In this document: one piece after another, positions 43,823 to 46,144 of the stretch
Layout of the letters: each line of letters starts with the position of its first letter
Numbering within the stretch: the stretch's first letter is position 1
Assembly: GCA_009784375.1 (NCBI GenBank)
Contig: WRBV01000002.1
Span: 62,001 to 126,000, forward strand
DNA from: Bacillota bacterium
GTDB lineage: Bacteria > Bacillota > Clostridia > Christensenellales > UBA1242
Direction: 5' to 3'
DNA: 64,000 nt
Translations under genes and position numbers: made by a program
Notes under the pieces: model-generated
Told to the model about the DNA's origin: nothing
Seen by the model: only the letters and a program-made list of their open reading frames with translations
The model's database searches: none

Positions 43823-43852
43823 TTGACTTTGGTGTGGTTTTTATCATATAAT
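43823..43852 (+). promoter_or_regulatory. Sigma-A-type promoter TTGACT-18-TATAAT
   Basis: Direct reading; -10 ends 5 nt before the leader-peptide ATG. Confidence 0.75.
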
Positions 43853-43857
43853 ATATT

Positions 43858-43896
43858 ATGAACTTTTATTCCTTGAACCAAGAACAACAGCAGTAA
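43858..43896 (+). CDS. Putative Gln-rich leader peptide MNFYSLNQEQQQ
   Basis: ATG...TAA with four Gln codons in the last five sense codons, followed by hairpin 43896-43919 and terminator 43968-44000. Confidence 0.5.
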   Translation: MNFYSLNQEQQQ

Positions 43897-43967
43897 GTGT
43901 GTGGAAGAATCCGCGCACTATTTGTAGTTGCTCGGAGAATTTCAAGGATATAATAACTTGATTTGGA

Positions 43968-44000
43968 ACACCTGGGCAAAATGCCTGGGTGTTTTTGTTT
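43968..44000 (+). terminator. Attenuator-like terminator ACACCTGGGCA-AAA-TGCCTGGGTGT-TTTTGTTTT
   Basis: Fully paired stem with two G-U wobbles, then T-tract. Confidence 0.8.
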
Positions 44001-44046
44001 TAATTGGTTAAAGGAATAAAAGTTCATAAAATAAGGAGATTAAAAA

Positions 44047-44232
44047 ATGAAAACAAATTATGTTGATGATGATAATTACATGGACTTGTACGAGAGTTTA
44101 AAAGGTTTTCGACATTATGGAAATGACTGTATGGATGGTAAAACACCAGTCGATTATATTCCTGTCGAGGGAGCCAAGTTGACGAAAATGCTTGAGAAAT
44201 TTAGAAAGGAGTCAGAAAATGAAAAAGGATGA
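44047..44232 (+). CDS. 61-aa protein overlapping the glutamine synthetase start
   Basis: AAGGAG SD upstream; ATG of next gene (44219) lies inside. Confidence 0.6.
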   Translation: MKTNYVDDDNYMDLYESLKGFRHYGNDCMDGKTPVDYIPVEGAKLTKMLEKFRKESENEKG

Positions 44233-45380
44233 AATCATTGAAATAATAAAAAATGAAAATGTAAAATTCATAAAGATGATGTTTGTGGATTTACGGGGGT
44301 GTCCCCAAAGCCATCGAAGTGACAACACATGTGTTGGATGATGTTTTTGCAGGTTTGATTACTATTGATGGGTCGAGTATTTACGGTATGACGGATGTGC
44401 ATAATTCGGACTTGTTGCTTGTTCCCGATTTAAATTCGTTCAGGATTTTGCCAATATGTAACAGCGAAATTGGAAATGTTGCTGTATTTATGTGCTTTGT
44501 TTGTAACCCAGATGGGACACCAGCCAAAGGTTGTACTCGATCAATCTTGAAAAGAGAATTAGATGTGCTGGGCAAGTGTGGCTTTGACAAAATGAATGTG
44601 GGTTTTGAACCCGAGTTCTTTTTGTTGCGTGATGGAAAGATTTTAGATGATGAAAGTTATGCCGATATAACAGAAGTCGATAGAATACTTCGTGAGATGA
44701 TGTTTGAATTTGAACGCGTTGGAATAATTCCGCTTACTTGCCATCATGAAAGGGCACCATCACAATTTGAAATTACATTTAAATATGAAGATGCTATGCG
44801 AAGTTGCGATAATCTTGTATTGTATAAAATGATTGCAAAGCACGTTGCATGTAAAAATGGGTTAGATTTGATTTTTGATCCAAAGCCTTTTGAAAGTGTA
44901 AACGGAAGTGGATGTCATACAAACATATCATTGGCAAAAAATGGTAAAAATGCCTTTGCAAAGGATGATGGATTGTCCGATATAGCAATGTGTTTTATTA
45001 GTGGAATTTTGGAAAATGCGGGGGCAATTACTTGGCTTGCAAATTCAAGCGAAGATTCATATAAAAGGCTTGTGCCGAATGCCGAGGCACCAACTAAAAT
45101 TTGTTGGGGATATCATAATAGAAGTGCGATGATACGTATTCCAAAGGCAAGTGAAAATGCGACAAGAGTAGAACTGCGAAGCCCAGATATGATGATGAAT
45201 CCATATTTATGTGTTGCGGGAATTTTGAGAGTAGGTCTTGATGATGTCAAACGCATGGCATTGCCACCAAAACCGATTGGAGATGTATCGGACAATGATG
45301 AAATTAAACATTTGCCCGCAAGTCTTGAAGATGCAATGCGAGAATTTAAAGCGTCAGAATTATTTCGTGGATTTTTATAA
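44219..45380 (+). pseudogene. glnA: Glutamine synthetase, frameshifted in a G5 run near 44295 and short at the C-terminus
   Basis: Frame 1 MKKDEIIEIIKNENVKFIKMMFVDLRG joins frame 2 VPKAIEVTTHVLDDVFAGLITIDGSSI; 'VNGSGCHTNISL', 'SYKRLVPNAEAPTKICWGYHNRSAMIRIP'. Confidence 0.8.
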
Positions 45381-45415
45381 ATTGGAATTTTAAAATGCTA
45401 TGCTATAATTAAAAT

Positions 45416-46144
45416 ATGTCTGAGCCGAACAAAAGAATAGTTGTTGATGAAAAGTTGGACAAGCTGTATGTAAAAAACGTGCGGTGTCCATATTGTCGTG
45501 CATTGATTCCAAAATTCACAACGACTTGTGTTCAATGTGGTGTTACAAAGGAACAAATTTCGGCGGCAAGTCATCAAGAAGCTAAACAAATTCTTGAGGG
45601 TAAAGCACAAGGCAAAGTCATAATGAGCAAGCGTCGTCCCGATGATTTGCAATTTGGGCGGTTTGTTATAATACTTATATTCTTTGGAATGTTTGGTGCA
45701 CATAATTTCTATGTTGGGCGAAAGATACGTGGTTGGATAATGTTATGTTCTATGCTTTTGTTAATTGCTTCGTTCTTTATATTTAATGTGGGAACAGCGG
45801 CAGAGAATTTCCAAGACATGCATCCATGGCGACGAACATTCAGGGGAGTTTGGTTTCCGTTTGATGCGCCTGGGATTATTGCTATAATAGTTTGGTTTTT
45901 TGATTGGTTTGCGGTTGTGGTTTTTCATCAATTTAAATATCCTGTGCGATTGTCTACGGATGGGGCTGTTATTGGGGCGACAAATTTCAGTAGAAAGAAA
46001 AATGACGGACAAGAAAATATCGCGGTCGATACAGACACCCAGGTTACTCTTGATGATTTGACAAAGCCTAATGATATAGGGATGCCACAAAAGAAGAAGA
46101 GTAAGAAAGAGACCTATGTAAAACAAGGAAAGGCGAAAAAGTAG
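45416..46144 (+). CDS. Zinc-ribbon + TM2-domain membrane protein
   Basis: CPYCRALIPKFTTTCVQCG; 'IFFGMFGAHNFYVGRKIRGWIML' TM2 motif. Confidence 0.8.
   Translation: MSEPNKRIVVDEKLDKLYVKNVRCPYCRALIPKFTTTCVQCGVTKEQISAASHQEAKQILEGKAQGKVIMSKRRPDDLQFGRFVIILIFFGMFGAHNFYVGRKIRGWIMLCSMLLLIASFFIFNVGTAAENFQDMHPWRRTFRGVWFPFDAPGIIAIIVWFFDWFAVVVFHQFKYPVRLSTDGAVIGATNFSRKKNDGQENIAVDTDTQVTLDDLTKPNDIGMPQKKKSKKETYVKQGKAKK

Follow-up and report, generated by a model that had tools for sequence, protein, structure and literature searches.

The glutamine synthetase gene (glnA) contained in the window, i.e. the whole stretch of 64,000 nucleotides analysed here, is probably controlled by a two-stage sensor of charged glutamine tRNA, a reading for which no expression, ribosome profiling or protein data are available. 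Its parts were graded separately. The presence of a glutamine-codon attenuator before glnA is held with high confidence on computational grounds, its regulation by glutamine being inferred. That glutamine synthetase (GS) is made through a +1 frameshift is very likely, the frameshifting itself being again an inference. The response of the shift to Gln-tRNA, also inferred, is favoured with more reserve. Sequence elements, their conservation, alternative folds, a coding constraint acting on two frames and colinearity with a known GS were all observed directly, and this support is drawn from few independent lineages. The features identified are reported in Table 1.

Table 1. Features of the glnA locus, in window coordinates.
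Feature	Position	Strand	Remarks
Sigma-70-type promoter TTGACT-18-TATAAT	43823..43852	+	TTGACT 43823-43828, 18-nt spacer, TATAAT 43847-43852
Leader-peptide ORF, leaderless, attenuator segment 1	43858..43896	+	MNFYSLNQEQQQ, 4 Gln codons; homologues in other loci
Stem 1:2 (protector), 5' arm CCTTGAA	43871..43877	+	leader codons just before the Gln codons; compensatory changes
Hairpin beginning at or just after the leader stop codon	43896..43919	+	stem retained in six loci
Attenuator segment 2	43928..43947	+	TTGCTCGG 43928-43935, antiterminator arm; TTCAAGG 43941-43947, 3' arm of stem 1:2
Intrinsic terminator, segments 3:4, plus U-run	43965..44001	+	43965-43995, then the U-run; CCTGGGCAA 43971-43979, antiterminator partner
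61-aa ORF	44047..44232	+	overlaps the glnA start codon; no family match, not conserved
glnA, zero-frame part	44219..44305	+	29 codons, MKKDEIIEIIKNENVKFIKMMFVDLRGCP; unshifted product 40 aa, TGA 44339-44341
+1 frameshift site CGG GGG TGT CCC CAA A	44294..44309	+	SD-like CGGGGG 44294-44299, 3-nt spacer, P-site CCC 44303-44305, A-site CAA 44306-44308; sequence shared with relatives
glnA, +1-frame part	44307..45380	+	resumes at AAA 44307; joined protein P0001, 386 aa, type I glutamine synthetase

The upstream unit, its leader peptide and its alternative structures

The genome to which the window belongs (G000) measures about 1.08 Mb, is 85% complete and falls in a family of genomes of about 1 Mb. 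Two relatives (WRBO01000028.1 and WQZR01000012.1) are public termite-gut MAGs labelled Bacillota, from which a termite-gut source of the window was inferred. Genes of the window's glnA type are scarce, a good GS match being found in 9 of the 309 genomes of the family. The closest three relatives, two from the window's genus (G046 and G069) and one from a different genus (G018), all contain an upstream unit like that of the window. A covariance model built from these four loci was used to find further copies, and added two, both in the congener G006 (C2 and C16). The unit, composed of promoter, leader peptide, stop-codon hairpin and intrinsic terminator, is therefore represented by six loci from two genera.

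Beyond these, the covariance-model search revealed no further convincing copy in the family and in 396 genomes of the order; weak family matches scoring below those of G006 turned out to be unrelated hairpins. The order-wide search with the RNA model gave a single weak match, lacking both leader and GS. Of two scans of genome contigs, the first was empty and the second yielded nothing beyond the already known G046 and G018, and no convincing Gln-rich short ORF was found upstream of GS genes belonging to the order's other families. In the five loci besides the window, the leader precedes either glnA or the start of a glnA remnant, while the neighbouring genes vary, indicating that the leader travels with glnA. 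Such a recurrence in five more loci shows that the arrangement in the window is no accident.

The promoter, leader, hairpin, terminator, 61-aa ORF and end of the GS gene at 45380 had been proposed by an earlier, sequence-only reading of this DNA, and all were recovered at the same coordinates. A TTGAC element and a TATAAT-like box, similarly spaced, are also present in G046, G018, G069 and both G006 loci. The window leader starts with an ATG located 5 nt past the TATAAT and ends with TAA; the homologous leader peptides are MTRKTLNQQEEMQ, MIFKTLNQQQQQ, MSFKTLNQQEN, MEFRNLNQQEF and MKLLNLIQQQII. An L-(N/I)-Q-(Q/E) core is invariant across the six peptides, whose translation is inferred, and Gln codons occur in all six, upstream of glnA or of its remnant start. 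The sequence-only reading would have been refuted by homologous loci keeping the terminator and losing the Gln codons; the two are retained together in 6/6 loci, and the idea of attenuation at a Gln-codon leader is supported.

At all six loci the start codon lies about 5-6 nt past the -10-like hexamer. A promoter-like -10 was found 5-7 nt before the ATG for 69 of the 730 ORFs of G000, the count elsewhere being about 1-2 per position; such a genome-wide peak indicates that leaderless transcripts are normal in this genome. The earlier suggestion that the leader ATG sits near the expected transcription start, as a leaderless ORF, fits this peak, and the leader is best read as leaderless. One example among the many leaderless genes of G000 is the gene for a 242-aa protein following glnA, whose ATG (45416) lies 6 nt past a TATAAT (window 45382-45418).

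The RNA spanning 43853-44046 is predicted to fold at -74.9 kcal/mol, shuffled sequences giving -36.6 +/- 4.0 (z = -9.6, 0/200 shuffles). Part of this stability is supplied by a 19-bp inverted repeat confined to the window's species. The repeat is perfect (43855-43873 / 44013-44031) and flanks the entire attenuator, so that pairing is possible between the region around the leader start and the sequence immediately preceding the 61-aa ORF; it is possibly a 5'-end stabiliser of the readthrough mRNA. Its interpretation as a MITE was dropped, because only one copy of the element exists in the genome and the other loci lack the repeat.

When the RNA is free, the leader codons immediately preceding the Gln codons (CCTTGAACC) form a stem with the downstream GGTTCAAGG, enclosing the stop-codon hairpin, and the terminator forms. 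Since the MAFFT alignments of the leaders contained too many gaps for covariation to be counted formally, base pairs were compared by means of anchored stems. The comparison revealed compensatory changes in stem 1:2, from C-G to U-A in G006 C2 and from G-C to A-U in G018, and many more in the stop-codon hairpin. An intrinsic terminator lies between leader and gene in all six loci, that of G006 C16 being weaker (-8.0 kcal/mol).

No convincing antiterminator had been seen by eye in the window. Constrained folding does reveal one, obtained by masking the leader to 13 nt past the start of the first Gln codon, as a mimic of a stalled ribosome, and by including RNA only up to the 5' arm of the terminator. 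Under this rule segment 2 pairs with the terminator 5' arm in all of the first four loci: the pairing is TTGCTCGG/CCTGGGCAA in the window, CGTTGC..AGG/CCTGGGCAACG in G046 and GTGCCTAGGGTTCAA/TTGAAC(A)CCTAGGTAT in G069. Shuffling of segment 2 gave P = 0.039 for the window, 0.005 for G046 and 0.001 for G069; in G018, where a repeat is inserted at the locus, the pairing is not significant (P = 0.65). The test had been fixed on these four loci and was applied unaltered to the two found later, both in G006, yielding P = 0.002 and 0.012. Over the six loci the combined Fisher P is 4e-7, with significance reached in five. By folding, the 1:2, 2:3 and 3:4 alternatives are mutually exclusive, with the reservation that 2:3 is not significant in G018.

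Two other possible leaders were encountered. In the window's genus, L010 (G089:C7, about 960-1290) contains a promoter, a short Arg-rich ORF (MKTNKEIMFQANARRARQRRHTL) and a terminator-like repeat ahead of the binding protein of an amino-acid ABC transporter, and is a possible Arg/His leader attenuator. In G000 itself (C3:174872, L209), a leaderless, Phe-rich ORF, MILIRRNFFFAFMSPHS, is followed by a strong terminator and may be a Phe-rich leader.

The probable frameshift site and the two reading frames of glnA

The earlier description of a 61-aa ORF followed by glutamine synthetase holds in that both are there. The ORF is, however, not conserved, being missing from G046 and G018 and replaced in G069 by a different 50-aa ORF; its role is possibly limited to translational coupling. 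Nor is the GS gene a simple ORF, as it truly begins with the ATG at 44219 and passes into the +1 frame at about 44303-44306. Between the window and G046, differences at codon positions 1/2/3 number 9/7/15 across 28 zero-frame codons and 113/87/235 across 358 +1-frame codons, a pattern indicating that both frames are coding. The joined protein matches PF03951 (Gln-synt_N) and PF00120 (Gln-synt_C), and its alignment with the solved GS 4lnf extends over residues 3 to 382 and is ungapped at the junction. Its score of 336 bits is under the NCBIfam GlnA equivalog cut-off of 429, suggesting a divergent, shortened GS.

The window, G046, G069 and the G006 C2 remnant share an identical site sequence (GGGGGTRTCCCCAAA) at the same codon; in the zero frame it reads (C/A)GG GGG TRT CCC CAA A. 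In these four loci an SD-like AGGGGG or CGGGGG followed by TRT is placed three nucleotides before the slippery sequence, the window having CGGGGG rather than AGGGGG. The P-site codon can re-pair in the +1 frame, CCC on CCC. The A-site codon is CAA (Gln) in all copies, and the prfB criterion of a TGA followed by C is unmet. The pattern occurs once in G000 and is absent from 395 other sampled genomes of the order; its 65 matches in viral contigs include none with a GS nearby. Among the 434 SD-like hexamers of the genome, only that of glnA precedes a perfectly re-pairing slip into a long +1 frame.

A single tRNA-Pro (UGG) and a single tRNA-Gln (UUG) were found in the 98% of the assembly examined, and CCC is used 2.9 times per 1000 codons (8% of Pro codons). 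Since gatB is present in four congeners, the supply of Gln-tRNA probably requires glutamine to donate the amide. Against the proposed shift stands the usually weaker +1 shifting seen with a sense rather than a stop codon in the A site (PMC5009743).

The only otherwise intact frameshifted glnA genes are those of the window and G046. The G069 gene (L017) carries an in-frame TGA and a deletion of roughly 25 residues near codon 90, being otherwise conserved; either decay or readthrough may be involved. The G006 copies are truncated remnants only, and together with the G069 lesions they point to decay of the system in some members of the genus. In G018 the leader is present and glnA is unshifted. 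Both G006 remnants (C2, L097, and C16, L081) are preceded by intact leaders and shift sites; in L097 the remnant is followed by a DppA-like gene and a divergent GS-like gene, which may have inherited the Gln-responsive leader.

Proposed mechanism and alternative explanations

As a first stage, glnA would undergo ribosome-mediated transcription attenuation. RNA polymerase is proposed to start at or next to the leader AUG, and a ribosome to load onto the leaderless ORF. With ample Gln-tRNA, the ribosome would complete the leader and leave, 1:2 would pair, terminator 3:4 would form and transcription would end. When Gln-tRNA is scarce, the ribosome would stall at the Gln codons covering segment 1, 2:3 would pair and glnA would be transcribed. 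The second stage would be a prfB-like programmed +1 frameshift within glnA. After 29 codons, the P site of the ribosome is predicted to hold CCC and its A site CAA, with the SD-like GGGGG three bases upstream. Where Gln-tRNA is present, CAA would be read and a stop soon reached, giving the 40-aa peptide; where CAA remains unread, the peptidyl-tRNA-Pro would slip from CCC to the overlapping CCC, AAA would enter the A site and full GS would be made. Both stages would thus act in the same direction, scarcity of Gln-tRNA causing antitermination and provoking the shift. Transcription start, ribosome stalling, frameshifting and glutamine response are inferred.

Even with a real attenuator, the shift in glnA might be no glutamine sensor, constituting either a constitutive, set-ratio event or a tolerated indel rescued by a slippery site. 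This is unlikely, yet it has substance: CCC is shift-prone by nature, natural +1 shifts at CCC_UGA being known in Listeria phages and E. coli pheL (PMC5009743), and with tRNA-Pro(UGG) as the sole tRNA-Pro found, CCC would be read by a near-cognate. A shift of that kind does not account for the conservation of a whole prfB cassette, with its SD-like element, its spacing and CAA in every copy. The degenerate G006 C16 locus (AGG AGG TGT CTT CAA) likewise keeps SD, spacing and CAA, its slippery codon being CTT. A shift sensing Gln-tRNA is preferred.

It is very unlikely that the structured leader is a metabolite riboswitch, a T-box or a small RNA instead of a ribosome-sensing attenuator. The high stability of the window leader RNA would suit such elements, and in cyanobacteria glutamine riboswitches do control GS inactivating factors (PMC6316151). 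Conservation of the leader, however, tracks codons and base pairs and not an aptamer-like core. No Rfam family reached threshold either in the window scan or in a relaxed scan of the region, the best sub-threshold matches being unrelated sRNAs, and no Rfam covariance model matched at gathering score across the attenuator region. Ribosome-sensing attenuation remains the better description.

Hardly credible, too, is the idea that glnA is a pseudogene, or the shift an assembly error, with the leader as a relic. The extra TGA of G069 and the truncated G006 copies could be cited for it, and a GGGGG...CCCC run is the sort of place prone to indel errors. The same extra base nevertheless occurs at one and the same position in four loci from four genomes, third codon positions of the new frame diverge 2-3 times more than second positions, and the catalytic residues of GS are invariant. 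In addition, 348 intact long ORFs contain 242 runs of at least four C and 703 of at least four G, showing that homopolymer indels are no general fault of the assembly. Internal initiation, in which GGGGG would serve as a genuine Shine-Dalgarno for another start site in the +1 frame, is barely tenable: an SD-like sequence does sit just upstream of the +1-frame region, but G046, G069 and G006 have no in-frame ATG, GTG or TTG at a usable distance, and the N-terminus encoded in the zero frame is conserved in its own right and can be aligned with GS.

Relation to known systems

Within the literature searched, limited to open-licence papers, neither a Gln leader peptide before glnA nor a glnA frameshift was found, and glnA goes unmentioned in a large survey of prokaryotic frameshifts. 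The leader stage amounts to attenuation of the trp/his type operating through glutamine codons. It shares control-codon logic, segments 1-4 and alternative 2:3 / 3:4 pairing with the trp, his, leu, thr, ilv and pheA attenuators (PMC1183508), and differs from them in having glutamine codons before glnA, in being leaderless and in occurring in a Bacillota lineage. Leader-peptide attenuators have rarely been described in Bacillota, one case being the His leader before hisS/hisZ (PMC2965389). If the present reading is true, glutamine joins the amino acids sensed by leader-peptide attenuation, and a full leaderless attenuator is placed in a reduced-genome Bacillota lineage.

In mycobacteria, leaderless poly-cysteine attenuators were reportedly described by Canestrari et al. 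in 2020 (cited in PMC9031893). These likewise consist of a leaderless short ORF with control codons for one amino acid; the present system has glutamine in place of cysteine, plus an intrinsic terminator and an antiterminator. Glutamine riboswitches of types 1 and 2 are also RNA elements linking glutamine status to GS control. Unlike the leader described here, for which the window gave no Rfam match at threshold, they are aptamer-based, described only from cyanobacteria and directed at inactivating factors (PMC6316151).

The frameshift stage would be a new form of the prfB principle. The prfB (RF2) shift has the same SD-like AGGGGG, 3-nt spacer, slippery P-site codon and slow A-site codon, the last of which reports the level of the gene's own product, as it is proposed to do in glnA (PMC12421855). 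The glnA site has CCC C in place of CTT T, the consensus slip of the prfB family being CTT on TTT (PMC12421855), and the sense Gln codon CAA in place of TGA: it would work like prfB but lies outside the stop-codon family. The prfB genes of the window's genus (L065, L066, L068, L069) have lost the +1 shift; that of G018 (L064) keeps it, with the site CGG GGG TGT CTT TGA C, compared with which the glnA cassette of the window chiefly has CCC for CTT and CAA for TGA.

The trigger, an unread A-site codon when aminoacyl-tRNA is scarce, is that of hungry-codon frameshifting in starved E. coli, which is a laboratory phenomenon, unlike the natural case proposed for glnA. A review of 2016 knew of no natural trans-frame protein specific for starvation (PMC5009743). 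The evidence tilts, without being decisive, towards glnA being under natural hungry-codon frameshift control, by a prfB-like cassette having a Gln codon for the stop and working in series with a leaderless attenuator. If true, this would be, to the knowledge of that review, the first natural hungry-codon frameshift yielding a protein needed in amino-acid starvation, and the prfB cassette would be a module open to reuse, with the codon in the A site defining its input.
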